From the IMG/VR virus record IMGVR_UViG_3300037117_000101, positions 1-64,000 of that record: DNA of 64,000 bases; one strand, given 5' to 3'. Below, piece after piece: positions 16,159-60,658 of the stretch. Under the pieces are notes generated by a model, which was given only the letters and a program-made list of their open reading frames with translations, was not told the origin of the DNA and ran no database searches. Every line of letters starts with the position of its first letter. Position 1 is the first letter of the stretch. The translations under genes were made by a program, and so were the position numbers. The stretch is from a virus.

Positions 16159-16644
16159 TCACGCGACGGCAGTCACAACCATTGTGGCCGACTGTGCGAC
16201 TGGCGGCGGGGGAGGCGGTGGTGCGGCTGCGTTAACAGTAACCGTATCCGACGCGCTAAGATTGTTGCCACTGTCTATGGCAGAGATAACTGCTGCTCCG
16301 GGAGCCACAGCGGTAATATTGCCGCTCTGATCCACGGTTGCGATAGTCGTATCGCTGGATGAGAACACTGGCGCCAAGATCGGCGCGATCACGTTTCCTG
16401 TTCCGTTGAGTCCTGTGAACTCAGTGAAGACGGCCTTCGCGCCGTTTCCGCCTACGAGAATGGTTGCTGGCATGTCTTTGTCTCCTATGGTCAGAATCAC
16501 GGATCGTGCTACTAGCATCCCCCGTGACTTCTTCAATTCGTATTCTTCGATCAGATGGACTTGCTTTTCGAGTTTTTCTATTCGCTCCAACTCGTCCTGC
16601 TTTTCGTCCTTCTTCATATCCAAGCGATCACGACTCCTCAACAT
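16159..16644 (-). CDS. Coiled coil fused to a Big_2 immunoglobulin-like domain
   Basis: A 161-residue frame. Residues 1-45 are a charged helix (DELERIEKLEKQVHLIEE). Residues ~65-145 form a bacterial Ig-like (Big_2) domain with FSSSDTTIATVDQSGNITA and PGAAVISAIDSG. A run of seven prolines and a short hydrophobic tail follow. An internal ATG at 16473 has its own TAGGAG eight bases upstream and would give the Ig domain alone, so two products from one frame are possible. Big_2 domains are common on phage surfaces, where they bind carbohydrates weakly. Confidence 0.65.
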   Translation of the reverse strand: MLRSRDRLDMKKDEKQDELERIEKLEKQVHLIEEYELKKSRGMLVARSVILTIGDKDMPATILVGGNGAKAVFTEFTGLNGTGNVIAPILAPVFSSSDTTIATVDQSGNITAVAPGAAVISAIDSGNNLSASDTVTVNAAAPPPPPPPVAQSATMVVTAVA

Positions 16645-34949: not shown

Positions 34950-35303
34950 ATGCCAGTAATGGACGTGCAGGTTCGAACCATCAGCTGTGAGCAGTGCGAT
35001 AAGACGGTGACCTTCAGTATGAAGGACCACCAGCAAGTCGTCAAGGATAACTCGTGGCTCAATACGTCGCGCGTCATCCAGACCGGCGACGGACGCAATT
35101 TCCTCTATTGCTCCGACGAGTGCGAGATCAAGGGCGTCGGAACGAGCAAGCACAACGTGCCGGAACCCAAGAAGATCATCGAGACCCCGCAGGTTGGCGC
35201 CGCGCAGGCCATCAAGATCGCAGCACAGGCCGCGGAGCAAGCCAAGGCGGGAACGAAGGCCATCAAGGAAGGTAAACCCGCGTCACTGAAGGTCGTTCGA
35301 TAG
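34950..35303 (+). CDS. Zinc-finger protein, 117 aa
   Basis: CEQCDKTVTF and LYCSDECEIKG form a C4 zinc site in the first 60 residues. The second half is an Ala/Lys-rich helix (AAQAIKIAAQAAEQAKAG). Start ATG after AAGGAG. Unknown function, probably nucleic-acid related. Confidence 0.6.
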   Translation: MPVMDVQVRTISCEQCDKTVTFSMKDHQQVVKDNSWLNTSRVIQTGDGRNFLYCSDECEIKGVGTSKHNVPEPKKIIETPQVGAAQAIKIAAQAAEQAKAGTKAIKEGKPASLKVVR

Positions 35304-35312
35304 GAGGACACA

Positions 35313-35585
35313 ATGGCGTCACCAGCAAGCGGCAAGAAGAGGGGTATGAGTGTCGAGACCGCGCATAAACTATTCTCTACGTGCGGCCTTCTTTTGAATC
35401 CCAACTTCCAGACCATCCTCGAAGGAAGCGGATACGTTCTCGACGAGCTAGCAGTAGAGTCTATGCGCGCCGAAGCGGCTCTCGTGATTGCGAAGGACGT
35501 GGTTAAGGAAGCCGGATACAAATTTGACAAAGTTCTCAAAGGCGGTCCTGCGCCAGAGACACCAATCGACACTTTGGAGGCATAA
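35313..35585 (+). CDS. Hypothetical 90-aa protein
   Basis: Starts MASPASGKKRGMSVE after TAGGAGG. Helical with no recognised motif. The next gene begins at the base after its stop codon. Confidence 0.55.
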   Translation: MASPASGKKRGMSVETAHKLFSTCGLLLNPNFQTILEGSGYVLDELAVESMRAEAALVIAKDVVKEAGYKFDKVLKGGPAPETPIDTLEA

Positions 35586-44965: not shown

Positions 44966-46273
44966 ATGGCAAACAAGAAAAAATTCATCCCGCTCACAAG
45001 TCTGGATAATCTGAGCGACGCACAGAAGACTGAGTACAAGGTTAACGCGTGCGAGTATTTCGAGATTCCGCCCGAGTTGAGCCTGCTAGAATTCATGTGG
45101 CTGGACTCAGGTGACGCCGGTCGCCACCTCGTGCTCTACGCCAAGAAGGGCGCTACGGATATCATGAGGGGCAACCGCGGAATCTCTGTTGACGAGATCC
45201 GGGAAGTGGTGGGCGACGGCTCCATCATGTTCATCGCCAAGGGCCACGACAAGACAGGCCGCACAGACGTGGCCGTAGGCGCCGCAGACACCCGGGGCCG
45301 CAGTGGCAAGTACCTGTCGGACGCAATCATGACAGCGCAAACGCGCGCTACCCGCCGCCTCACGCTTCAATTCGTAGGCGGGGGCCTGCTCGACGAGTCA
45401 GAAGTTCAGAACACGACCACGGACATCTCCCGCGCAACTCAGCCCTTGGCCGAAATCGCAGCCCCGGCTTCGCTCTCACCCAATCCTTCGGCGGGCCGCG
45501 ATGTGACTCCTATGAAAGTTGGAGACACGGTGCAGATGCCAAACGGGCAAGTCTTGCCGGTTGTCGAAGCCGGAACGTCCTCCATCGATCCGAAAATCAT
45601 TGCTGCGGGCGACAGTCTAGTGAAAAATATTATCGAAGCCACCAACGCGACTATTGCCGCCGCAATCGCAGAAGAGCCCAAGAAACGTCGTCGCCGGAAG
45701 AAGGGCGAAGTCGTGTTGGAATCGCCGGGTCAACCTGAACCTGTTTGGGTGAAGCAATGTCTGGCGTGTCACGTGCCGGTGCACGAAGGGCCGCATCCCG
45801 ACAATCCTACATCGATAATTTACGTCAACGAAGATGGGAAGCCTCACGTTTGCCTCAACCCTCCTTCCCCTCCTTCCCCTCCCACGCCTGCGCAACAGGC
45901 TGCTGCGGAGGCCCTAGCAACCATAAATGCCACTAAGCTAATCGGAGACCCCATGGTTGAACCGCCACCGCCACCCCGCGTCGAACTGAAGGACCAGCCC
46001 AACGCCGAACAGATCAAGGTTTTCAAGGATCGTTTGTTCAACTATACGAACATAATTCTGAAACAAGGCAAGATGATCCCGTGCGAAGGCATCGGGGGCA
46101 TCGCGCAGAAGATGTTATTCTTCGTGAAGGCCATGTTCGCCACAGCGGAAACGAAACACCTAACTGTCAACCAGTGGGAATCTTTCTTGGGATTCCTTGA
46201 CGAGAAGTATGCAGAGATTGGCGCCGAAGGGCTCGTGAAGTTGATCAATCAGAAAATCGGGGCCAAAGAGTAA
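44966..46273 (+). CDS. Recombination/annealing-like protein
   Basis: A 435-residue protein. The N-terminal ~160 residues contain YAKKGATDIMRGNRGISVDEI, VAVGAADTRGRSG and YLSDAIMTAQTRATRRLTLQFVG, a set I recognise from phage proteins next to exonucleases that are thought to be single-strand annealing proteins. The middle is a basic/Pro-rich linker with a CLACHVPVHEGPH zinc-like motif, and the C-terminal ~100 residues are helical. A RecB-like nuclease gene four genes downstream could be its partner. Start ATG after AAGGAGA. Confidence 0.5.
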   Translation: MANKKKFIPLTSLDNLSDAQKTEYKVNACEYFEIPPELSLLEFMWLDSGDAGRHLVLYAKKGATDIMRGNRGISVDEIREVVGDGSIMFIAKGHDKTGRTDVAVGAADTRGRSGKYLSDAIMTAQTRATRRLTLQFVGGGLLDESEVQNTTTDISRATQPLAEIAAPASLSPNPSAGRDVTPMKVGDTVQMPNGQVLPVVEAGTSSIDPKIIAAGDSLVKNIIEATNATIAAAIAEEPKKRRRRKKGEVVLESPGQPEPVWVKQCLACHVPVHEGPHPDNPTSIIYVNEDGKPHVCLNPPSPPSPPTPAQQAAAEALATINATKLIGDPMVEPPPPPRVELKDQPNAEQIKVFKDRLFNYTNIILKQGKMIPCEGIGGIAQKMLFFVKAMFATAETKHLTVNQWESFLGFLDEKYAEIGAEGLVKLINQKIGAKE

Positions 46274-47847
46274 TGGAACTCAACGCAGAACAGAAAGCGT
46301 GTGTCGAGGCTATAGACGGCGTTTGGGTAGCCGTCTCAGGCCCCGGCACAGGAAAAACTACGACTCTTGTTCAGCGCCATTTGGCTATGCTGATGCGTGG
46401 AATTTCATCTCGGGACATTTTGAATCTGAGTTTTACTTCTGCGGCTGCTGAGGCCATGGTGAAGAAGGTTGGCCTGCTGGACGCCGACAAGGTGTTCCGC
46501 ACTTTCCACAGTTTCTGCATGGAACTGCTACGGCAGGAGCGAAGCAATTTGTCTTTTCCTCTATGCGATACAGTGATTCCGGTGGGCATGGAGGATTACA
46601 AACTGCTGTTCGATCTTGTGAAGCGTTATCCCGCGATTCGAAACTTCAACGCGCTGAAGGAATATTTGTCGGACTGGAAGCGCCAGAACATCGACCCCGA
46701 CGAGGCCATGGATAGATCCCGCAACAACGGCATCGAATACTTTTACGCTTTGGCTTACTCCGATTACGAAAAGGAATGTCGCGAGCAGGGGTGGCTGGAC
46801 TTCGACAGCGTGATGCAGGAGACGCTGGCGTTGCTGGAATCCAACGCCGAGGTCCGTGCGAAATGGCAGCGCAAGTACATTGCCGTGGATGAGTGTCAAG
46901 ATACGGACGTGGTTCAGTTCCGCATCCTGCAACTCCTGTTCAATGGCAACATCTTTGTCGTAGGCGACGAGAACCAATTGATCTACGAATGGCGCTCCGC
47001 GCAGAGCGGAAACCTGACCAACTTCGCCCAGAAGTTCCCGGGAGCCAACACGTTGTACATCGGTAAGAATTACCGCAGCACCCAAAAGTTGGTCGAATTT
47101 TTCAAAGCTATTCTGCCCAAGGATAACGGCATCGCGTCACGCATGATGACAGACAACGAAGAGGGTATCGGCCCCGTCTTCAAGAAGTACTCCGATGATC
47201 ATGAGGAAGCTTACTGGGTTCTGGCGCAGATCACCGATCCCGAGAACACCGCGATACTGGCGCGCACCAACCGCCAACTTTTCATCTATCACCGCATCTG
47301 CACGATGCGCAGCATCAAGTACAAAATATTGGGGAAGAAGGACTTCTTTGATCAAAACGAGGTTCGAAAGCTTCTTACATATGCTAAAGAGGTAGACAGC
47401 AATCAGCCTGCTGCGCAAGTGTTGAAGGGATTAATCGAGAAGCACCGCATGCTTGAAGTATATAAGCACAGTGTAACGAAAGATTCAAACCCTATCGAGA
47501 ATTTGAACAGCGTTGTAACTCTGGCTGGCACGAAGGGCGGAACCATCAAGGAGTTCATAGAGTATTTGCGCAAGCGTTCGCATGGGCGCAAGAATGCGAA
47601 AGGATTGACTCTAAGTACAGTACACCAAGCAAAAGGAAGAGAGTGGGAAAATGTCTTTATTGTGGGGGCCGAACAGGGGCGGATGCCACATAAGGACGGG
47701 GAGTTGGAAGAGGAAACCAGAATTTTCTATGTTGCAGCGACAAGGGCGGCTCACCTCTTACACATCAGTTACTCAGGACGCCATAGTATGTTCTTGGAGC
47801 CGTTCAAGGATCAGATTCAGAATTTGTCGAATTCGGAGACGTTATGA
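46273..47847 (+). CDS. UvrD/Rep-type superfamily 1 helicase
   Basis: A 524-residue SF1A helicase. Motif I VSGPGTGKTT (21-30), Ia LNLSFTSAAAEAM, Ib FHSF, II YIAVDECQDTD, III VFVVGDENQLIYEWRSA (as FVVGDENQ), IV KNYRSTQ, V LSTVHQAKGREWENVFI and VI RIFYVAATRAAHLL are all present. Somewhat shorter than UvrD (about 720), lacking large 2B insertions. Unwinds DNA in replication or recombination. Starts in a TAATG overlap. Confidence 0.92.
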   Translation: MELNAEQKACVEAIDGVWVAVSGPGTGKTTTLVQRHLAMLMRGISSRDILNLSFTSAAAEAMVKKVGLLDADKVFRTFHSFCMELLRQERSNLSFPLCDTVIPVGMEDYKLLFDLVKRYPAIRNFNALKEYLSDWKRQNIDPDEAMDRSRNNGIEYFYALAYSDYEKECREQGWLDFDSVMQETLALLESNAEVRAKWQRKYIAVDECQDTDVVQFRILQLLFNGNIFVVGDENQLIYEWRSAQSGNLTNFAQKFPGANTLYIGKNYRSTQKLVEFFKAILPKDNGIASRMMTDNEEGIGPVFKKYSDDHEEAYWVLAQITDPENTAILARTNRQLFIYHRICTMRSIKYKILGKKDFFDQNEVRKLLTYAKEVDSNQPAAQVLKGLIEKHRMLEVYKHSVTKDSNPIENLNSVVTLAGTKGGTIKEFIEYLRKRSHGRKNAKGLTLSTVHQAKGREWENVFIVGAEQGRMPHKDGELEEETRIFYVAATRAAHLLHISYSGRHSMFLEPFKDQIQNLSNSETL

Positions 47848-48347
47848 AATGCTATAAGTGTAGATGCGAGTTGACAAAGAAGACCGCCTCGCCTTCGGTC
47901 CTCAGACGAACAAGAGGATGGTGCCGAATCTGCGCGAAGAAGTATCGTACCCAACATGCTGCCGAAATGCGATTGTATTTTAAGAGGCACTATGCAACTC
48001 ACGGCGAAGAGAGATCGCGCTTACAGCAAACCTTTTCGTTTCGGCACGCACGATTGGTGTTCTTTTTAAAGAAAACCAAAGTCTCTAAGAGCGATCCGTT
48101 ATGGCGTACGAATTTCTTTATTGGTTTGTTGAGTTTTAACGGGTGCCACTATTGTCTCGGGCCTTTGGGTATAAGAGGATACTCTTTAGATAAAGTAGAC
48201 CCGCGAGGTTCATATTCTGCAAACAATGTAGTGCCGTGTTGTGTACGCTGCAACAGGATTAAACTCGACCATTTGACATATGGGGAGATGATGGAATTTG
48301 TCGCCCCCGCTTTGCGGAAACTTCGAGAATCTAAGGAGACTCTATGA
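47844..48347 (+). CDS. HNH endonuclease
   Basis: A 167-residue protein. N-terminal zinc knuckle MKCYKCRCELTKK ... WCRICAKKY, then the HNH core GCHYCLGPLG, YSLDKVDPRGSYSANNVVPCCVRCNRIKLD. ATGA overlaps at both ends keep the helicase and downstream genes in the operon. A/T-rich relative to neighbours, typical of a mobile gene. Confidence 0.85.
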   Translation: MKCYKCRCELTKKTASPSVLRRTRGWCRICAKKYRTQHAAEMRLYFKRHYATHGEERSRLQQTFSFRHARLVFFLKKTKVSKSDPLWRTNFFIGLLSFNGCHYCLGPLGIRGYSLDKVDPRGSYSANNVVPCCVRCNRIKLDHLTYGEMMEFVAPALRKLRESKETL

Positions 48348-50603: not shown

Positions 50604-51143
50604 ATGAAACTAAAGGACTTATCTGGGCGGCTATTTGGCCGATGGGAAGTTTTAGGGCGAAGCGCCCGAAAAAGTAGTCGAATTTGCTGGGATTGTGTCT
50701 GTACGTGCGGAAAGACTAAGTCAATTTATGGTCGAAATCTATTGGCGGGAAAGAGTCGTGGTTGCGGAAAATGCCAAACACGGCTGGTAGGAGATGAGGC
50801 AGCTTTTAGAGCCGTCTTTAGATGTTATCGAGAAAACGCCAAACGAACGAATAAAGATTTTCATCTTTCTCTAACTCTTGTTCGAGAACTCACATCCGCT
50901 GATTGCTTTTACTGCGGCGAATCACCATCTCAAGAAAGCAAACATCGAGCGCATAACGGTAAACAGAAGAAAAACGGGCAATCCTATTTTTACAATGGCA
51001 TCGACAGGAAGAACAACTCGTTAGGGTATACGCCTGAAAATTGCACTTCTTGCTGTAAAATTTGCAATTATATGAAACAAGAACTCTCACAACAGGAATT
51101 CATCTACCACATCAAAGAAATTCTTGAAAGGCTGCAGCCATGA
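50604..51143 (+). CDS. HNH endonuclease next to the hairpin element
   Basis: A 179-residue protein. N-terminal beta-rich zinc module (FGRWEVLGRSARK, CVCTCGKTKSIYGRNL, CGKCQ) and the HNH core CFYCGESPS, FYNGIDRKNNSLGYTPENCTSCCKICNYMK. TGAAACGCG occurs both before this gene (50570) and at the start of the next gene (51141), as if its insertion duplicated or displaced that start. A/T-rich compared with flanks. Confidence 0.86.
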   Translation: MKLKDLSGRLFGRWEVLGRSARKSSRICWDCVCTCGKTKSIYGRNLLAGKSRGCGKCQTRLVGDEAAFRAVFRCYRENAKRTNKDFHLSLTLVRELTSADCFYCGESPSQESKHRAHNGKQKKNGQSYFYNGIDRKNNSLGYTPENCTSCCKICNYMKQELSQQEFIYHIKEILERLQP

Positions 51144-51859
51144 AACGCGCTATGGTTGTGGAGTTCTCGGTGAAGGTTCACACGTGCCGTCTCTTGCAAG
51201 ATTACGGGCCGGGCACCTTGGAAGAACAGATCCTTCCAAATAATCGATACATTTGCGTCCGCAATCCCCGGCGCGATGAGGACGAGCCCAAATCTTGGCT
51301 CGAAGAGGTCACTAAGGCCCCTGAATACTACAGGATGCGGCCTAACTGCAAGTGCCGCAAATGGATCACGTTCCGGGAGGCCATCGATTTGTGTGATTCC
51401 GGCCACGCTCTGTGGGCCTATAAGACGAAAAGTTCTGAAGTTCTGAGGTGCGAGCCTGACCCGCCCCGGCGCAACGCTCTGGGGACGCCCCTGAGGGGCG
51501 CGCTAGGCCACATATGGCGCCCTGTGGTCGTCGGCAGGGTTCCCCGCATCGACCTGATCACCAAGGCCGATATCGAAAGGGCTTACATCAACGCCGTGGG
51601 CGCCTCAATCAAGAAGATCGAGATGATTCATGAAATGCACATGGAGGCCCGCGCACTCCTGTTTTACGGTTTGACGGTTGAGGACGGCCAAGTCATTGAA
51701 AACAAGGACGGCGCGCCGCACTTGGTCGGCAATCAGCGTAAGGTAGGCTCTAGGGCGTACGGCGCACCGGAATCCATCAACGATCCTATGGAGGGCCGTT
51801 GCCTCTTCCCTTTTACCGCGGATGAGCGCACGGCAGGCGGGCACCAAAATAGTGCTTGA
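51140..51859 (+). CDS. Hypothetical 239-aa protein
   Basis: Starts MKRAMVVEFSVKVHTC in an ATGA overlap with the HNH gene. NCKCRKWITFREAIDLCDSG is a Cys-containing segment and LITKADIERAYINAVGASIKKIEMIHEMHMEARALLF a long helix. No family recognised. Ends at a promoter. Confidence 0.6.
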   Translation: MKRAMVVEFSVKVHTCRLLQDYGPGTLEEQILPNNRYICVRNPRRDEDEPKSWLEEVTKAPEYYRMRPNCKCRKWITFREAIDLCDSGHALWAYKTKSSEVLRCEPDPPRRNALGTPLRGALGHIWRPVVVGRVPRIDLITKADIERAYINAVGASIKKIEMIHEMHMEARALLFYGLTVEDGQVIENKDGAPHLVGNQRKVGSRAYGAPESINDPMEGRCLFPFTADERTAGGHQNSA

Positions 51860-51884
51860 CATTCACGTCGAAGTATAGTAGGAT
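51856..51884 (+). promoter_or_regulatory. Sigma-70 promoter
   Basis: TTGACA, 17 bp, TAGGAT. The sequence CTTGACATTC...AAGTATAGTAG resembles the duplicated cassette at 25859 and 63267, so it is a third, diverged member. Confidence 0.75.
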
Positions 51885-51906: not shown

Positions 51907-52356
51907 ATGAAAAAGATTACAGCACTGTGTGTCGCAGTTATGATTATCGTCGGTGGTTCGCTTCACGCTGTCGCGGCGAACGCCGCGCGAAAATCGGCGG
52001 TGAACACGGAATTTTTAGAGGGCATCTACTCCACCTACAACGACGAGTATTTCGGTGGACGGTTGCCGAAGGACACCGCGATCATCTACGCGCCGGACCC
52101 GGACGAACCGGAGGACGTGGGCTCAACGGAATGCAGTCTCGATATCGTTACGATGAAGCCTTCGGCGTGCTCGATTCACATCGCGCCCTACGCGAACGTC
52201 GCGCAGACCGTTGCTATCGAGTCCATGATTCACGAGATGTGTCACATCCAGACTTACGGAGTCGCGGAGCACGACGGCAAAGGATCGCACGGCAAAGAGT
52301 GGACGGCGTGCATGCTGGGCGTCGCGATGTCGGGAGGCATGGACGGTGTGTGGTGA
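51907..52356 (+). CDS. Secreted SprT-like metalloprotease
   Basis: A 149-residue protein with a signal peptide (MKKITALCVAVMIIVGGSLH ... AVAANAA) and a SprT-like zinc protease domain: YNDEYFGGRLP, the zinc motif H109-E110-M-C-H113 (IHEMCHIQTYG) and a third ligand in GSHGKEW. SprT-like proteases are normally cytosolic DNA-protein-crosslink or stress enzymes, so export is unusual. Might act on periplasmic or envelope proteins during lysis or exclusion. Start ATG after AGGAGG, directly behind the promoter. Confidence 0.75.
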   Translation: MKKITALCVAVMIIVGGSLHAVAANAARKSAVNTEFLEGIYSTYNDEYFGGRLPKDTAIIYAPDPDEPEDVGSTECSLDIVTMKPSACSIHIAPYANVAQTVAIESMIHEMCHIQTYGVAEHDGKGSHGKEWTACMLGVAMSGGMDGVW

Positions 52357-52412
52357 GATTCTTCATCCCACCAACATGTAAGATTCGCATCATAGATGTA
52401 CAAGGAGGAATT

Positions 52413-52667
52413 ATGGACATTCAAAATAAGGAATTCAAAACGTATGCCTTGAACTCAAGAGGCGTCAACAAAGTTTTGGAAGTGCGCCAGATCTTCGACA
52501 AGGCCCTGACTCAGTTGACGGTCCTTTGCGCCAATAATTTGACGTTCGCAGGTGATCGGGAATTTCAAGCCGTTCGGGAATCCCTCGAAGTGGCGAGCAT
52601 GTTCGCAGTAAAATCGATTTCAGTGCGGGCCGAGAATCAAATCCAAGACGAAGGAGGCAAACTCTAA
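52413..52667 (+). CDS. Acb2/Tad1 hairpin-like small protein
   Basis: An 84-residue, all-helical protein: MDIQNKEFKTYALNSRGVNK, an alpha-hairpin, and DREFQAVRESLEVASMFAVK. Length, helical hairpin pattern and the R-x4-V/I-x-L-x-x-A-x-x-F/M-A motif resemble the Acb2/Tad1-hairpin group, phage proteins that sequester cyclic nucleotide signals of CBASS and Thoeris defence. Remote similarity judged by eye only. AAGGAGG precedes the ATG and the gene overlaps the next one (TAATG). Confidence 0.5.
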   Translation: MDIQNKEFKTYALNSRGVNKVLEVRQIFDKALTQLTVLCANNLTFAGDREFQAVRESLEVASMFAVKSISVRAENQIQDEGGKL

Positions 52668-53101
52668 TGGGACACACCGTAGGAGAACAGGCTGGACGTT
52701 CGGTCAAGAAGAGCGAGAAGACAAAGTTGGCGGAACGTACGCCCCAAGAAATCATCAAGAGCATTCGCAATCTTCTGGACGCGAAGCTGGCGGTGACACC
52801 GGACGACACTCGCTTCCTATTGACGAAGTACGACGAAGCAATCGTCTTGGGAGAGGCCCTTGTGGCTTCGAAGTGGGTGGACGCGGTTCCTCTCGCTCAT
52901 TACGATGATCTTCAAGCGAAGTATGACAGAGCGTACGCCGCGCTTCAAGCGATGGCACCAACAATGGCCGAGACGCCGGTCGAGGAGTTTATGGGCGCCG
53001 AGAACAAACTGGCCGAGGTTGTCGAACTGGTCAACGATTCCATGGGCGTGGACGCAGCGGCTATGGAGAACGAAGGAGGGCCTGATGCCCCGACGAGCTA
53101 G
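52667..53101 (+). CDS. Hypothetical 144-aa helical protein
   Basis: Starts MGHTVGEQAGRSVKK. Helical throughout (LTKYDEAIVLGEALVA, YDDLQAKYDRAYAALQAM). No motif recognised. Its 3' end overlaps the next small gene. Confidence 0.55.
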   Translation: MGHTVGEQAGRSVKKSEKTKLAERTPQEIIKSIRNLLDAKLAVTPDDTRFLLTKYDEAIVLGEALVASKWVDAVPLAHYDDLQAKYDRAYAALQAMAPTMAETPVEEFMGAENKLAEVVELVNDSMGVDAAAMENEGGPDAPTS

Positions 53102-53499: not shown

Positions 53500-54054
53500 A
53501 TGATTCGAATCAATGTGGTGGGCGAACTCTCTGAAGTCGCCAAGGCAACACTCCGATACCACGCGGAACACTACGCCAAGTCCTACAGCGAGCGTAATCC
53601 GGGTCTGGGTAAGATGACCCGTTGCGGAAACCCGGGCTGCGTTCTGGGGCGCCACCGTTCCGCGGTCGTACATGCCGATCTGACCTACTCCACGGCGCAC
53701 TACGAGCTGGACGCGGAGACCGGCCTGCAACTACCGGAGGACGAGAAGACCATTTTGATCGCGCCCAAGACGCGCAACGGACTGATGGGCGCCGCGCGCT
53801 TCAAGGGCAGAATTCTTCGGCACCGGCATCCCCGGACGCTGGAGGCCAAGCAACTCGCGGATGAATTGTTCGACGCCGATTTGGAATTCGCGGAATCATT
53901 TCCGAATTATCAGCCCGACATCACGCACAGCGTTCGCGAGGCCATCCGTATCATCAATACCCGTCTCCAAACGCGAGCCCGGAAGGCCCAGAAGCAATCC
54001 GATCTCTCTCGCCGCATCAACAAGGGGCTGGCGACACCCGGATCGCGGCTATGA
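53500..54054 (+). CDS. Hypothetical 184-aa protein
   Basis: Starts MIRINVVGELSEVAKATLRY after AGGAGGGG. TRCGNPGCVLGRHRSAVVH contains two cysteines and histidines, LIAPKTRNGLMGAARFKGRI a basic strand, and the C-terminus is a long basic helix. No family recognised. Confidence 0.6.
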   Translation: MIRINVVGELSEVAKATLRYHAEHYAKSYSERNPGLGKMTRCGNPGCVLGRHRSAVVHADLTYSTAHYELDAETGLQLPEDEKTILIAPKTRNGLMGAARFKGRILRHRHPRTLEAKQLADELFDADLEFAESFPNYQPDITHSVREAIRIINTRLQTRARKAQKQSDLSRRINKGLATPGSRL

Positions 54055-55033: not shown

Positions 55034-55410
55034 GTTATGTAAATCCTAATTGCGGGTGTCCGCATCCCAATAGCGAGCACGGTAGCTGCGCAGCGGGCGA
55101 ATTCTGCAAGGGCTCCAATTGTCGCTGCGTGGACGGAACCTATTACGGAGAGATGGACGATCCCGCCTCGCTAGGCAAGGTGCGCGCCAATCTGGCACCC
55201 GCGAAGTGGGTTACTGAGACGCGCAACAGCAAAGTGTTGGTAGATTTCATAGCTTATTGTCTGCTGCACCCCGAGGAGCGATTCTGGCAGGCCCTGCGGA
55301 ATTGGGCAGGTGCTAGTTTCATTCTTGCGGTTGAAGACGGATATAACCATCTCGATTCAGTGCAAATCGGGGGGCATGATACGTTTCATCGGGAGGGGAA
55401 GAATGGCTGA
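55030..55410 (+). CDS. Cys-rich N-terminus protein, 126 aa
   Basis: MSYVNPNCGCPHPNSEHGSC and FCKGSNCRCVDG give seven cysteines in 35 residues (zinc module), followed by a helical part with FIAYCLLHPEERFWQALRN. ATGA overlap with the phosphoesterase, 8-bp overlap with the endolysin gene. Confidence 0.55.
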   Translation: MSYVNPNCGCPHPNSEHGSCAAGEFCKGSNCRCVDGTYYGEMDDPASLGKVRANLAPAKWVTETRNSKVLVDFIAYCLLHPEERFWQALRNWAGASFILAVEDGYNHLDSVQIGGHDTFHREGKNG

Positions 55411-55897
55411 TTTCACAATAGCGGTACTGCTGACGCTTCAACACGAGGGCGGCTTTGTGGATAACCCTGCTGATCCCGGGGGCGCCACGAATTTCGGCAT
55501 CACTCAACGGGATCTGAATCTCACGATGCCGGGCAAAGATGTTCGCACGCTGACATCCGCCGAGGCCGCGCAGTGGTACGAGACGACTACACAGCCGCAA
55601 CGTTACAACAACCCACTATATTGGTCTATCGAGGACCAGTCTGTGGCATCGAAAATATTCGATATGGGCGTGCTCTTCGGCGTGGGCGAGGCTGTGCACT
55701 TGATTCAGGGCGTTCTTCAGCTGAGTATTGATGGGAACTTCGGGCCCCAAACGCTGGCCGCAGTGAACGGAGCCGAGCCCCTTTCGCTTCTGTCGGCGTT
55801 CAAGACTGTATTGGCTCAGCATTCTTTTGATATCGGCAGCGAGCATCCCGCCGAACGTCAATTTATTATCGGCTGGATCAGAAGGGTGAACTCGTGA
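55403..55897 (+). CDS. GH108-type endolysin (muramidase)
   Basis: A 164-residue lysozyme. The family motif TLQHEGGFVDNPADPGGATN with catalytic E15, then FGITQRDLN and the helical core DQSVASKIFDMGVLFGVGEAV and SIDGNFGPQTLAAV (the PG_binding_3 part) match glycoside hydrolase family 108. No signal peptide, so it would need a holin to reach the cell wall. Start ATG after GGGAGGGG. Confidence 0.9.
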   Translation: MADFTIAVLLTLQHEGGFVDNPADPGGATNFGITQRDLNLTMPGKDVRTLTSAEAAQWYETTTQPQRYNNPLYWSIEDQSVASKIFDMGVLFGVGEAVHLIQGVLQLSIDGNFGPQTLAAVNGAEPLSLLSAFKTVLAQHSFDIGSEHPAERQFIIGWIRRVNS

Positions 55898-56142
55898 GAC
55901 GTCAACCCTGCTACATGACGCATCAGGGTTGCGCTGATCGCCGACGGCATTGGGCAGACCCGGAGGGCGCTTCGCGCGGAGTTCAATACGTTGAGGTGCC
56001 AGACGAGCGCGATGAATTGATTCCAGTATTCTGCTCCTTTACGTGCGCTGCGATGTCGGGGTGGATGCCCATTTATACGCATCACGCAAAATGTGTGAGA
56101 TGCGGAATCAATCACGCCCCTCGATGGGTCTGCGTGGAGTAA
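55894..56142 (+). CDS. Hypothetical 82-aa Cys/His protein
   Basis: GTG start overlapping the endolysin stop. CSFTCAAM ... CVRCGINHAPRW suggests a C4 zinc fold. Ends three bases before the next gene. Confidence 0.55.
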   Translation: MRRQPCYMTHQGCADRRRHWADPEGASRGVQYVEVPDERDELIPVFCSFTCAAMSGWMPIYTHHAKCVRCGINHAPRWVCVE

Positions 56143-56144
56143 AT

Positions 56145-56552
56145 ATGAAAATCGGATTCACAGGAACGCAACGGGGCATGACGGACTTCCAGAAAGAAGT
56201 CCTCGAAGCCTTTTTGCGCATCTATGAGGATTGGGGCGAGGAGTTATGGTTTCTTCACGGCGACTGCATCGGTGCGGACGCCGAGGCTGTGAGAATCGCC
56301 CGGGATATGAAGTACGGCATCTGGACGTTTCCGCCGATACACACTGCGAAGCGCGCTTGGGTAGAGTCCGGTCGAACAGAAACGCCCCGGGAGTACTTGA
56401 CGCGCAACCATAACATCGTCAAGGCTTGCGATCTGATGGTCGCGGCGCCGGGCGAAGACACTGAGGTACTTCGGTCCGGTACTTGGGCGACAATTCGATA
56501 CGCGAAAAGACTTGACAAACACCTATTTTTGATATATCCTAAGCACACTTAA
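56145..56552 (+). CDS. SLOG-superfamily protein
   Basis: A 135-residue Rossmann-like protein: MKIGFTGTQRGMTDFQKEV, ELWFLHGDCIGADAEAVRIA, WTFPPIHTAKRA, YLTRNHNIVKACDLMVAAPG and LRSGTWATIRYA match the YspA/DprA-like SLOG fold that binds nucleotides. SLOG proteins occur in defence and counter-defence systems and in nucleotide signalling. Exact ligand unknown. Contains the next promoter at its 3' end. Confidence 0.75.
   Translation: MKIGFTGTQRGMTDFQKEVLEAFLRIYEDWGEELWFLHGDCIGADAEAVRIARDMKYGIWTFPPIHTAKRAWVESGRTETPREYLTRNHNIVKACDLMVAAPGEDTEVLRSGTWATIRYAKRLDKHLFLIYPKHT
56512..56540 (+). promoter_or_regulatory. Sigma-70 promoter
   Basis: TTGACA, 17 bp, TATCCT, 22 bp before the start of the polynucleotide kinase gene. 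Same TTGACAAACA and TATCCT as the promoter at 22524. Confidence 0.8.
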
Positions 56553-56562
56553 AGGAGGGCCA

Positions 56563-57450
56563 ATGCCCGGCATCATGCGAATACTGAGCGGTCTCCCGGC
56601 GAGTGGGAAGAGCACGTACTGCCACGATCTGATGGAGCGCGAGCCCCACAAGTGGGCCCGAGTGTCGTGGGACGACATTCGCCATGAATCTCCTAACTAC
56701 AAGTTTTCCAAAGCCAATGAGAAGCGCGTGATTGAGCGCGCGTATCTCGCCGCGCACGAAGCCGCGGGAGATGGGTACAATCTCCTGATTGACAACACGA
56801 ATCTGAGCGACCGCCACGTAAATTACTGGACCGAGTTGGCTAATGCGTGGGGCTTGGCAGTCGAGGTCAAGTTCTTCGACGTGTCAGTGGACGAGTGTGT
56901 AAGGCGGGATGCGCTGCGAGCGGGGAAGTACTCCAAGGGTGGCGCGCAGGTTGGCCGCGTAGTCGTCGAGCGATTCGCGCTATCGCGCGGCCTGATCCAG
57001 TGGCCCGCCAACAAGCCCATCGTGATCGTGGACGTGGACGGCACACTGTCCGATACCAGCCATAGGCGCAAACTTCGAGAAAATGGGAAAGTTGATTGGA
57101 ACTATTTTTACCGCGACGATTTGATTCTGGCCGATCCCCCTTTCTCGGTGGTCGTGGACTGGGTGCGGGGCCTGTACGAAACCCACGTGGTTGTCATCGT
57201 GTCCGGCAGAGACGCGGGGTCGTCGGCGTTCAGCACGGTGGAGTGGCTTGCGAAGAACAACGTGCCCTATCATCACATCTTCATGCGTAACGCGGGAGAT
57301 CGTAGGGACGACACGCTCGTGAAGCAAGACATCCTGAACCTGCTGCCCCGAGATCGCGTTGCGTTCACAATCGACGACCGCGACCGTGTTGTCGCGATGT
57401 GGCGCAAGAACGGCCTGACGTGCTATCAAGTAGCGGACGGAGATTTTTAA
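56563..57450 (+). CDS. Polynucleotide 5'-kinase/3'-phosphatase
   Basis: A 295-residue homologue of T4 PseT. N-terminal kinase with P-loop GLPASGKST (10-18), VSWDDIR, IDNTNLSD and the lid VRRDALRAGKYSKG. C-terminal HAD phosphatase with IVDVDGTLSD (D157, D159), VSGRDAGS and FTIDDRD. Heals broken RNA ends (5'-OH, 2',3'-cyclic phosphate) for sealing by RNA ligase. Start ATG after AAGGAGGG, directly behind a promoter and followed by two RNA ligases. Confidence 0.95.
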   Translation: MPGIMRILSGLPASGKSTYCHDLMEREPHKWARVSWDDIRHESPNYKFSKANEKRVIERAYLAAHEAAGDGYNLLIDNTNLSDRHVNYWTELANAWGLAVEVKFFDVSVDECVRRDALRAGKYSKGGAQVGRVVVERFALSRGLIQWPANKPIVIVDVDGTLSDTSHRRKLRENGKVDWNYFYRDDLILADPPFSVVVDWVRGLYETHVVVIVSGRDAGSSAFSTVEWLAKNNVPYHHIFMRNAGDRRDDTLVKQDILNLLPRDRVAFTIDDRDRVVAMWRKNGLTCYQVADGDF

Positions 57451-57599
57451 TGTCAACTTATGAAAACGATCTTTGTCAGCGCGTCAGTCGCGACATTATG
57501 GCTGGCATCTTCCATCCCGATCCGCCGTGGACTACGGAGTCTCTGGCCCTCGAAGCCAAGCGCGTGCATAAGACAACCGTGGGCGTGCTGCTCCGCTAG
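57450..57599 (+). CDS. Hypothetical 49-aa protein
   Basis: TAATG overlap with the kinase gene. MSTYENDLCQRVSRDIMAG... ends VHKTTVGVLLR. No domain recognised. Confidence 0.5.
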   Translation: MSTYENDLCQRVSRDIMAGIFHPDPPWTTESLALEAKRVHKTTVGVLLR

Positions 57600-57605
57600 G
57601 GCAGC

Positions 57606-57710
57606 ATGTGGGTAGGTGCGCACTATTCGACGAAGCAGAAGCGTTTGTGTATGAACCTGATTCCATTCGTCACGATCTGGGTGGCGTTCAAAGGAGGATT
57701 TCGGCCATGA
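57606..57710 (+). CDS. Possible 34-aa peptide
   Basis: Frame MWVGAHYSTKQKRLCMNLIP... with a short hydrophobic end (FVTIWVAF). Weak ribosome site, but its stop overlaps the next ATG (ATGA), as in real genes of this region. Confidence 0.35.
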   Translation: MWVGAHYSTKQKRLCMNLIPFVTIWVAFKGGFRP

Positions 57711-57841
57711 AAATTGACAAACTTGATAAAGTTGTAATTGCGTTCATCATTGCTGTCACCACTATCGAAGTCGCGGGCACGATAGCACTGGGGGTCGGCG
57801 CTGTTCTGATCATTCAGCACTTTCTCGTCAAATTTTGGTAA
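57707..57841 (+). CDS. 44-aa membrane peptide
   Basis: Starts MKIDKLDKVVIAFIIAVTTI after AAGGAGG (ten bases). One or two hydrophobic helices and a short basic-aromatic end. Confidence 0.5.
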   Translation: MKIDKLDKVVIAFIIAVTTIEVAGTIALGVGAVLIIQHFLVKFW

Positions 57842-57850
57842 GGAGGAACT

Positions 57851-57955
57851 ATGGGTTTCATATTCATTATCGCGTTGGTTTGCCTTTTCATGGGGCATCC
57901 TTGGTTTGCATTGGCGTTTGTCGGTCTCGGTATCATCTGGAGTAATCATGAGTAA
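57851..57955 (+). CDS. 34-aa membrane peptide
   Basis: Starts MGFIFIIALVCLFMGHPWFA after AAGGAGG. Almost wholly hydrophobic and overlapping the next start by 8 bp. Confidence 0.5.
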   Translation: MGFIFIIALVCLFMGHPWFALAFVGLGIIWSNHE

Positions 57956-58190
57956 CTTTACTTGGCCAACGAACTATGTGGTGTTCGGCCTGTTCCTGAT
58001 ACTCGCCACCCTAGTGGCCCTGCTCCTTATTCTGGGCGCGGACATTCTGGCGTGGCACTTCCTGAGGCCCCAAGGTTACTGGCAGGGATTGGCCTTGATT
58101 ATCGTGGAGGCTTTCACCGTTCTGCCCCGGGGATTCTTCGCAGTGATGTCGTGGTTGCTTATTTCCAAATTCGGCGCGGAGGTATCATGA
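57948..58190 (+). CDS. Membrane protein, 80 aa
   Basis: Starts MSNFTWPTNYVVFGLFLILA. Hydrophobic helices at about 8-34, 45-58 and 60-75. Forms with the three preceding peptides a run of four short membrane-type genes. ATGA overlap with the RNA ligase gene. Confidence 0.55.
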   Translation: MSNFTWPTNYVVFGLFLILATLVALLLILGADILAWHFLRPQGYWQGLALIIVEAFTVLPRGFFAVMSWLLISKFGAEVS

Positions 58191-58870
58191 GCGAATACCA
58201 AAAGATCGAGACCCTCTACGAGCGCGACCCCAAAACTTTCTCGGTGATCCCGGGCGAGTTCAAGAACAGGGCGTACAGCATTTTCAAAACGTGGCGCTGG
58301 ACAGAGAAAATTGATGGCACGAACGTGCGCATCATGTTTGCGCCGGAATCCGCCGCGGCGTGTAATACCGATCCGTACCCAGATCCCCGGATACCAGCAT
58401 CGGTTAAAGTCGGCGGGCGCACGGACAACGCCAACATGTCCGCGGATTTGGTTCAGAATATCCTTGGCATAGTAACGCCCGAGAAGATGGGGCGTTCGTT
58501 CCAGTGCCCCGTCGTGCTCTACGGCGAGGGCTACGGCGCCGGAATCCAGAAGAGCGGCATGCAGTACAGCGCGACCAAGAAGTTCATTCTGTTCGACGTG
58601 TTCGTAGACGGCCAGTGGTGGTTGAATCAGGAACAAGTTGAAGATGTCGGAGCGAAACTGGGACTGGATGTGGTGCCCTTCATGGGGGACTGGTCTCTCG
58701 ACGAAGCCACCGATTTCGTACGCGCAGGATTCGTCAGTCACATTCCGGGAGCCGCCAAGAAGGCCGAAGGTCTCGTGGGCCGGACCATTGAGACGCTGTT
58801 CGACAAGCACCATCACCGGATTATCACGAAGTTGAAGACCAAGGATTTCACGGGAGGAAAAGATGTCTAA
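58187..58870 (+). CDS. RNA ligase, Rnl2 type
   Basis: A 227-residue ligase. Motif I TEKIDGTNVRIMF with AMP-lysine K41, motif Ia/III region VLYGEGYGAGIQ and FILFDVFVDG, motif IV AEGLVGRT and motif V RIITKLKTKDF. Rnl2-like enzymes seal nicks in duplex RNA such as cleaved tRNA or bridged ends. It lacks the C-terminal domain of T4 Rnl2. GGAGG precedes the ATG. Confidence 0.9.
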   Translation: MSEYQKIETLYERDPKTFSVIPGEFKNRAYSIFKTWRWTEKIDGTNVRIMFAPESAAACNTDPYPDPRIPASVKVGGRTDNANMSADLVQNILGIVTPEKMGRSFQCPVVLYGEGYGAGIQKSGMQYSATKKFILFDVFVDGQWWLNQEQVEDVGAKLGLDVVPFMGDWSLDEATDFVRAGFVSHIPGAAKKAEGLVGRTIETLFDKHHHRIITKLKTKDFTGGKDV

Positions 58871-59171
58871 GAAAAAGCTAACATCTCGGGAGAACTTCAT
58901 CAAAAATGCGACAGTCGAGGACATTGCGCGTTTGACTTGGGATGCTTCAGAGCTAGCTATGAAGCATGACCCCGATCATCATAAGTGGTTGATGGAAATT
59001 TCGAAAGTTTTGAACAGGGATTTGCCAGCCATTGAAAGCCGTCTCGATATCATTGAGCAGCAACTTCGCCGGATCGGCGCGCCTCAGTATCGCCGGGTGC
59101 GGCGCGGCGTTCTCGCGGAGATCGTTCGCGGCCCCAAGTCGGCCAAGAACATAAAGGACTACACACTGTGA
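58863..59171 (+). CDS. Hypothetical 102-aa protein
   Basis: Starts MSKKKLTSRENFIKNATVED after GGGAGG. Helical, basic C-terminus (RRVRRGVLAEIVRGPKSAK). Overlaps both neighbours by a few bases. Confidence 0.5.
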   Translation: MSKKKLTSRENFIKNATVEDIARLTWDASELAMKHDPDHHKWLMEISKVLNRDLPAIESRLDIIEQQLRRIGAPQYRRVRRGVLAEIVRGPKSAKNIKDYTL

Positions 59172-59422
59172 GCTACATCAAATTCACCGAGAACGGCACG
59201 AGCCCCAGTGGCAAGACTAAGCGTTGGGTTGTAGAGGCCGCAGCCGGTGGCCCGAAGTTGGGCGACGTCTACTGGTACGCCCCATGGCGAAAATACGTAT
59301 GCGAAACAACCACCTCGATTTTTGACGAGGGTTGTCTTCGCGAGATCGCGGACTTCGTGGAAGGGGAGACGCGCGTGCATCGTCTGAAACTTGAGCTGGC
59401 GAAAATCGACGCCGAGGGGTAA
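59168..59422 (+). CDS. Hypothetical 84-aa protein
   Basis: GTG start overlapping the previous stop. MSYIKFTENGTSPSGKTKRW is a pattern I have seen in small phage proteins, with a beta-strand region WYAPWRKYVCE and C-terminal helix. Unknown. Confidence 0.55.
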   Translation: MSYIKFTENGTSPSGKTKRWVVEAAAGGPKLGDVYWYAPWRKYVCETTTSIFDEGCLREIADFVEGETRVHRLKLELAKIDAEG

Positions 59423-59423
59423 T

Positions 59424-59546
59424 GTGGTACACTGGTTTCAGCACTTGACAGAAGACGCGCAAGTCACTATAATGTGCGTGTTGGCTTGCGGGTTCATAAC
59501 CCTGCGCATTGTTGATATCTTGATTCGTTCGAAGGAGGGCAAATGA
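59424..59546 (+). CDS. 40-aa membrane peptide across a promoter
   Basis: GTG start five bases after GAGGGG. MVHWFQHLTEDAQVTIMCVL then GFITLRIVDILI gives one membrane helix with a basic end. A shorter ATG at 59472 is possible. The stop overlaps the Rnl1 start by ATGA. Confidence 0.42.
   Translation: MVHWFQHLTEDAQVTIMCVLACGFITLRIVDILIRSKEGK
59445..59473 (+). promoter_or_regulatory. Consensus sigma-70 promoter
   Basis: TTGACA, 17 bp, TATAAT, a perfect consensus, 70 bp before the Rnl1-type ligase gene. Confidence 0.85.
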
Positions 59547-60658
59547 AACTGGGCGCATTGCTGGACATTAAGGAGTTGGTACAGTTGGCGCACGATCATT
59601 TCGTGGGCTGCCAGCGTCATCCCACGTTGCCTTTGCGCATCTATAACTACACATCCCACGCGCAGTTCGAGAATAAGTGGGGCGGCACTATCGACTTCTG
59701 CCGGGGCTTGATCGTGGACGACAACGATAACATTGTCGCGCGCCCTTTCAAGAAGTTTCACAACCTTCAGACATCAAACCTGCCGGAGACGTGGGAAGAG
59801 AACCTGCCGCAATTTTTTCCGATGGTCACAAAGAAATACGATGGTAGTTTGGGCGTCTATTGGAAGTACGACGGCCATCAAGGCATCGCGACTCGCGGGA
59901 GTTTCACGAGTCCGCAATCGCAGTGGGCCACCGAATGGTTCAATAGAGCGTGTCCTGATGGGTTCGTGGATTGCGTGACTACACCTGCGACACCTCTGTT
60001 CGAGATCATCTATCCCGAGAATCGAATCGTGGTGAAGTACGATTTCGAAGGGTTGGTGCTGATCGGGCTCGTGGATATATGCACCGGCTGGGAGTATCAT
60101 TACCCCACGTTGGTGGACTGCGGAAGGTACAACGGCATCCGCGTCACAGAAGAATACAATCTGTCCTTGGCTGCGCTGAAAGCAGCCAACATCGAAAATG
60201 AAGAGGGCTACGTCCTGACCTATCGCAACGGCACGGGCTCGCCCTTGAAGATCAAAGTCAAGATGGCCGACTATCTGCGCCTGCACAAGATCGTCACGGG
60301 CATGAACGCGCGCAGCGTGTGGGAACTGCTGTCGAACGGGACCGGCACTGGGGGTTTCGAGCACACGCCCGAGCACTTCAAGAAGTGGCTGACGTCTTGG
60401 TCCGAGAAACTGAACGGAGATTTCAATTGTCTGTACATAGAGGCCCGAAAGATTTTCATGAATCGACCCGATCCTTGGCTGAACGGGACTGACCGAGAGT
60501 ATCGTGCGCAATTTGCTCAATATATCAAACGGATTTCAGACCCCAATCTTTTGGGGACGCTGTTCGCGATGCTCGACGGGCACGACCCGGCTCCGATCAT
60601 TTGGAGACAAATAAAACCCCGGGGCGACGACATGACTTTTCGAACGGAGGGGGAATGA
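59543..60658 (+). CDS. RNA ligase, T4 Rnl1 type
   Basis: A 371-residue ligase like T4 RnlA. IDFCRGLIVDDNDNIVARPF and KKFHNLQT precede motif I TKKYDGSLGVYW with K98. TRGSFTSPQ, LFEIIYPENRIVVKY (motif III area), EGYVLTYRNG (IV) and LKIKVKMADYLRLHK (V) follow, and a C-terminal helical domain. Rnl1 rejoins tRNA cut in the anticodon loop. Start ATG after AAGGAGGG. Confidence 0.93.
   Translation: MKLGALLDIKELVQLAHDHFVGCQRHPTLPLRIYNYTSHAQFENKWGGTIDFCRGLIVDDNDNIVARPFKKFHNLQTSNLPETWEENLPQFFPMVTKKYDGSLGVYWKYDGHQGIATRGSFTSPQSQWATEWFNRACPDGFVDCVTTPATPLFEIIYPENRIVVKYDFEGLVLIGLVDICTGWEYHYPTLVDCGRYNGIRVTEEYNLSLAALKAANIENEEGYVLTYRNGTGSPLKIKVKMADYLRLHKIVTGMNARSVWELLSNGTGTGGFEHTPEHFKKWLTSWSEKLNGDFNCLYIEARKIFMNRPDPWLNGTDREYRAQFAQYIKRISDPNLLGTLFAMLDGHDPAPIIWRQIKPRGDDMTFRTEGE

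Follow-up and report, generated by a model that had tools for sequence, protein, structure and literature searches.

Proteins of the Acb2/Tad1 family are made by viruses and sequester the small molecules with which bacteria signal an infection alarm. According to PMC12043709, Tad1 holds not just gcADPR but cyclic di- and trinucleotides as well, and it has an additional beta domain at its N terminus. For the T4 Acb2 (Vs.4, 7uq2), PMC12657218 states that a Y8A substitution disrupts dinucleotide binding and that Phe82 stacks on the base of the bound dinucleotide, while a figure legend in PMC12657230 describes lowered affinity of the T68M mutant. A further member, Acb2 homolog 43 (9ptq), was crystallised with 3'cADPR, a ligand taken here from the PDB title; our literature search returned no paper that names PDB 9ptq, and found "Acb2 homolog" together with CBASS and sponge in one review. 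A hairpin motif, RE...T..EEA..W, is common to Tad1 (7uav, 8kbe) and a wider short-form family, whose members include Gage 104, Anon 46, Likha 60 and a protein of cyanophage S-2L, each encoded by a single small gene.

Here, we analyse a candidate for this family in a stretch of DNA of 64,000 nucleotides (the window), which makes up nearly all of a 64,505-base IMG/VR virus record. The family itself is already known, and the window protein is a new, diverged member of it. We estimate at about 0.7 the probability that the gene at 52413-52667 is a diverged Acb2/Tad1 sponge-family gene whose product acts by sequestering an immune signal.

The gene and its immediate context

The coordinates of the gene and of the features around it are collected in Table 1. 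The ORF is translated into a protein with a single stop at its end, and we conclude that it is confirmed as a real, intact gene. Its reading frame stays open upstream as far as a GTG at 51927. This GTG was rejected as a start, both since the extended frame would run across the SprT-like gene, which is read in a different one, and since the two homologues described below begin with Met just ahead of a conserved (K/R)EF stretch. The stop codon overlaps the start of the next gene (TAATG, 52665-52669). Given this overlap and the ribosome-binding site, the gene appears to be part of an operon running from the SprT-like gene to the 144-aa gene.

An early promoter, proposed in the original prediction for this locus, was borne out in part. 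A promoter-like site is present upstream of the operon, one of three such sites found versus a mean of 0.8 in shuffles, but in the related phage record L020 its -35 element is kept and its -10 element is not.

Table 1. Coordinates of the sponge-family gene and adjacent features in the window
Feature	Position	Strand	Remarks
Promoter-like TTGACA-17-TAGGAT	51856..51884	+	upstream of SprT-like gene
SprT-like metallopeptidase gene, upstream	51907..52356	+	hydrophobic N terminus; has counterpart in L020
296-nt segment holding the sponge gene	52355..52650	.	50 nt in its place in L020
Ribosome-binding site AAGGAGG	52402..52408	+	4 nt before the ATG, read directly
Acb2/Tad1-hairpin-family gene, 84 aa	52413..52667	+	short N-terminal helix plus helical hairpin
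Downstream gene, 144 aa	52667..53101	+	no family match; has counterpart in L020

Assignment to the Acb2/Tad1 family

PF24729 (Acb2/Tad1 hairpin) was the sole Pfam match of the window protein at E<=0.1 (E 0.0062), but its score of 17.2 bits lies below the curated cut-off of 27 bits. To this single sequence, PHROGs gave no match at E<=0.1, PADLOC nothing, and phmmer against PDB nothing at E<=1; an NCBIfam match at E 0.12 was judged meaningless. Related phages were sought via the helicase gene at 46273-47847, which yielded 22 loci, or 23 records with the window. PF24729 scored above cut-off in 2 of the 22 (30.6 bits in L008 and 27.7 bits in L006/L025), whereas in a control set matches at a loose E limit were seen in 8 of 14 genomes and none of the 14 was above cut-off. 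The same family was above cut-off in all five scanned actinophage members. The two soil-phage homologues are 37-38% identical to the window protein (alignment A1) and are found with it by tblastn at E 1.6e-7 (L008) and 3.8e-10 (L006/L025). Since the window protein alone is under the Pfam cut-off, its membership of the family rests on these L008 and L025 intermediates.

A profile of three sequences, the window protein and the L008 and L025 homologues (profile A1), had 9ptq, "Acb2 homolog 43 in complex with 3'cADPR", as its best PDB match (E 1.9e-7). Aligned by HHalign to 21 other family members, the three-sequence kin profile matched at 96.6% over 63 columns (E 5e-10), and the window protein alone scored 20.3, whereas none of 200 shuffled versions exceeded 16.9. 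These 21 comparison members, 9ptq included, were hand-picked from matches and are not a random sample; the others come from phage records. Abscondus 10, a 55-aa protein with a doubtful start, figured in an earlier alignment and does not enter the counts. When a family profile was built without the window protein and its two homologues, 52413-52667 came first of 1299 window ORFs, with E 0.037. Homology to accepted Acb2/Tad1 members spans the whole hairpin, as seen both with HHalign and in the match of A1 to 9ptq. We conclude that the protein, though diverged, falls within the Acb2/Tad1 hairpin family and that the assignment is sound. The Acb2/Tad1-like identity originally proposed was thus right at the level of family, with homologues over the cut-off, the 9ptq match, the 21-member profile match and the fold in agreement; profile searches, named at the outset as the route to a different fold, turned up none and matched the Acb2 family. 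The assignment places a putative immune-signal sponge in an uncultivated soil-phage group, where it is missed by the one-sequence Pfam cut-off, by PHROGs and by tblastn.

Predicted fold

A monomer model was obtained with AlphaFold2 from a three-row alignment (mean pLDDT 79.2; residues 1-8 and 82-84 unreliable). Helices were modelled at residues 7-10, 15-41 and 48-71, with no strand of three or more residues, and the fold is a short N-terminal helix followed by a long helical hairpin, in agreement with the short all-helical protein of hairpin pattern that had been predicted. With VIA-align, 9ptq came first among 312 aligned chains (Z 8.0, 2.3 A over 65 residues), and Vs.4 (7uq2) and the Pseudomonas-phage Acb2 (8h2x) followed at Z 6.7 and 6.3; Z values of 6-8 are common for helical hairpins and not decisive, and unrelated chains reached 6-7.7. 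Foldseek against PDB gave no match at E<=0.001. At least five matches in a viral structure library were named Acb2/Tad1 hairpin, among the 50 matches listed. Generic hairpins were set aside, among them pilin, ROP and HBV core from Foldseek and fragments of RNA polymerase II from VIA-align.

Because unrelated chains score at this level, the modelled fold is consistent with family membership but would not be proof by itself. The protein might instead have no kinship with the family and be some other small helical hairpin, such as a regulator or an antitoxin, whose likeness to it is accidental. Its sub-threshold scores as a single sequence (the Pfam bits and the E value from the independent profile) and the many unrelated hairpins that reach Z of about 6 would be compatible with this, but the homology through L025 and L008, both above the Pfam cut-off, and a full-length profile-profile alignment speak against it, and we regard it as highly improbable.

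Comparison with described members, pocket residues and ligand

Among proteins of determined structure, Acb2 homolog 43 shares with the window protein the RE motif, the N-terminal F and a Lys at the window-67 column, and like it has no Phe82. It differs in having a Thr where the window protein has Glu and in a shorter loop, and the two are 22% identical in the aligned part. T4 Acb2 belongs to the same Pfam family and has a similar fold, but Vs.4 is without the RE motif, has a long inter-helix insert, and carries Thr68 and Phe82. The Pseudomonas phage Acb2 (8h2x, 8h2j) likewise has a similar fold and is counted in the same Pfam family. Tad1 chains match the window protein in the RE motif at the second hairpin helix; unlike Tad1 with its beta domain, the window protein is modelled as a hairpin only. 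The short-form members share the hairpin motif, but where actinophage, Paenibacillus-phage and cyanophage proteins typically have TKLEEAMFWANAAIAR, the window protein has ESLEVASMFAVKSISV.

Residues were counted in a 24-row alignment, and frequencies are given over the 21 non-kin family members. Retained in the window protein are the N-terminal F (present in 16 of 21 members), the RE motif, R49 E50 where the second hairpin helix begins (Arg in 19/21, Glu in 15/21), Lys67, which is common to both kin and 9ptq, and a C-terminal NQ, the same as in its kin. Glu56 stands at a column that is Thr in both kin and in 18 of the 21 members, and beside it Lys is changed to Ser and Glu to Val (alignment A1). 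The T4 pocket set Tyr8/Thr68/Phe82 is not matched: Glu stands at the Thr68 column and Ser70 at the Phe82 column, and Tyr8 aligns with T10, but since Y11 is only one column away, the equivalent aromatic residue is uncertain. The residues at the Thr68 and Phe82 columns argue, as read from the alignment, against a T4-type dinucleotide pocket.

These residues bear on a narrower form of the main reading, in which the protein would be an anti-CBASS Acb2 like T4 Vs.4 that binds cyclic dinucleotides. Vs.4 was the first Foldseek row (7uq2, with cGAMP, E 0.49), in addition to its Z of 6.7, but profile A1 matches it with E 0.55 versus 1.9e-7 for 9ptq, the window protein has no equivalent of Phe82, and its RE motif stands where Vs.4 has DQ. 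We consider this form unlikely. The nearest solved relative, in contrast, was crystallised with 3'cADPR and has the RE motif, as Tad1 does, so a ligand of cADPR (Thoeris) type is weakly favoured as the likelier one.

The altered columns also raise a doubtful alternative, that of a family member with a changed pocket, in which the hairpin and perhaps the hexamer are kept but another signal, or none of the usual ones, is bound. Glu56 and the two neighbouring changes could mark such a pocket, as could an N terminus 3 residues longer, and an inter-helix loop longer, than in either homologue, and the long branch that separates the protein from every known member (best BLASTP against any non-kin member, 25 bits). 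Yet the Thr is not absolute: 3 of the 21 members have Asp, Asn or Gly there, the Asp being that of a T4-like phage. The protein also has in common with its kin the RE motif, the N-terminal F, Lys67 and the C-terminal NQ, and change through decay fits poorly with a gene that is intact and well-initiated. If the pocket change matters, the protein is a natural variant for learning how sponges choose their ligand. More speculatively still, the Thr-to-Glu change and altered motif might have re-tuned the sponge to a signal outside cGAMP, cA3 and gcADPR, or to spare the decoy dinucleotides through which Panoptes senses ordinary Acb2-type sponges; we hold this to be improbable.

Returning to the main reading, the window protein probably acts, by analogy with its relatives, as a hexamer that sequesters a signal of CBASS or Thoeris. 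As in those relatives, the short helix and hairpin would assemble into a hexamer, the pockets of which would hold a nucleotide immune signal, either a CBASS cyclic oligonucleotide or a molecule of the Thoeris cADPR type. The signal would be held and not cut; host effectors would stay off and infection would proceed.

Several observations were made on other family members. Hairpin-like proteins of Paenibacillus larvae phages (MG727702.1, KT361657.1 and others) are annotated "phosphomannomutase", most likely a propagated misannotation. In cyanophage S-2L (MW334946.1, L035), an apparently unannotated hairpin-family ORF at 35232-35411 lies just upstream of an annotated tail assembly gene, which it overlaps. 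Two Gordonia phages (MZ820089.1, L046, and PQ184803.1, L050) have a hairpin-family gene between the portal and RNA ligase genes.

Genomic neighbourhood

The gene had been placed in a likely anti-defence neighbourhood with a SLOG protein and two peptidases, a claim that turned out to be weakly supported. The SprT-like peptidase holds (Pfam E 4.7e-7). A second one is without Pfam support: the product of 55400-55897 is a GH108 lysozyme, and that of 63377-63934 matches no Pfam family at E<=0.01, though its sequence does contain HEIGH. For the SLOG protein (56142-56552), the Pfam match to YAcAr (E 0.05) is under cut-off, and phrog_289 matches at E 3.8e-7. No strong "defence island" signal was found around the sponge gene, and Tad2-like PF11195 was present in 0 of the 23 related records.

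A set of RNA-repair genes occupies 56563-60658, with a polynucleotide kinase/phosphatase (PF25109) first, an RNA ligase (PF09414) at 58187-58870 and a T4 Rnl1-like RNA ligase (PF09511) at 59543-60658; the phage also has 6 tRNAs. In T4, tRNA repair acts against host nucleases, and by analogy the kinase/phosphatase and two ligases could serve the same end here.

Presence, absence and mobility of the gene

The record L020 is colinear with the window, in blocks about 74-92% identical. Its match ends at window position 52354 and restarts at 52651, and L020 has 50 nt (16355-16404) in place of this interval; with the flanks conserved, the sponge gene is thus the difference at that site, and the two phages form a natural with/without pair. 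Profile A1 (E<=0.01) found the gene in 3 of the 23 related records, window included, although records are often fragments and absences other than that in L020 are not firm. In L008, relatives of window genes 51140-51859 and 53500-54054 precede the homologue by ~1.1 kb and ~0.2 kb, respectively, which puts it in the same neighbourhood at another point, while the L025 homologue stands at a different site, between HD-like and exonuclease-like genes (named by eye). We conclude that this is a discrete accessory gene, gained or lost singly. Such a pattern fits a counter-defence accessory gene, but it also fits other small phage genes.

Wider scans returned no further direct relatives: none of the window protein at E<=1 in 50,697 phage records, none of the L025 protein among phages, and none of the L008 protein among plasmids. 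Scanning viral_contigs with profile A1 gave only an already known contig (L026), and a pattern scan of the same set gave 20 stretches with 0 confirmed relatives. Three stretches from a degenerate-motif scan of viral_contigs, each inside an unrelated ORF, were dropped, as was the single locus from genome_contigs (L030), which falls within a 931-aa ORF that has metalloprotease-like features and is not a relative.

Other differences between the window and L020 were seen. Two HNH-like endonuclease genes, at 47844-48347 (named by eye) and at 50604-51143 (matching phage endonuclease families), have no matching DNA in L020. Conversely, the helicase match of L020 to the window is interrupted by ~890 nt (L020:10800-11688), as if by an intron or a homing-gene insert.
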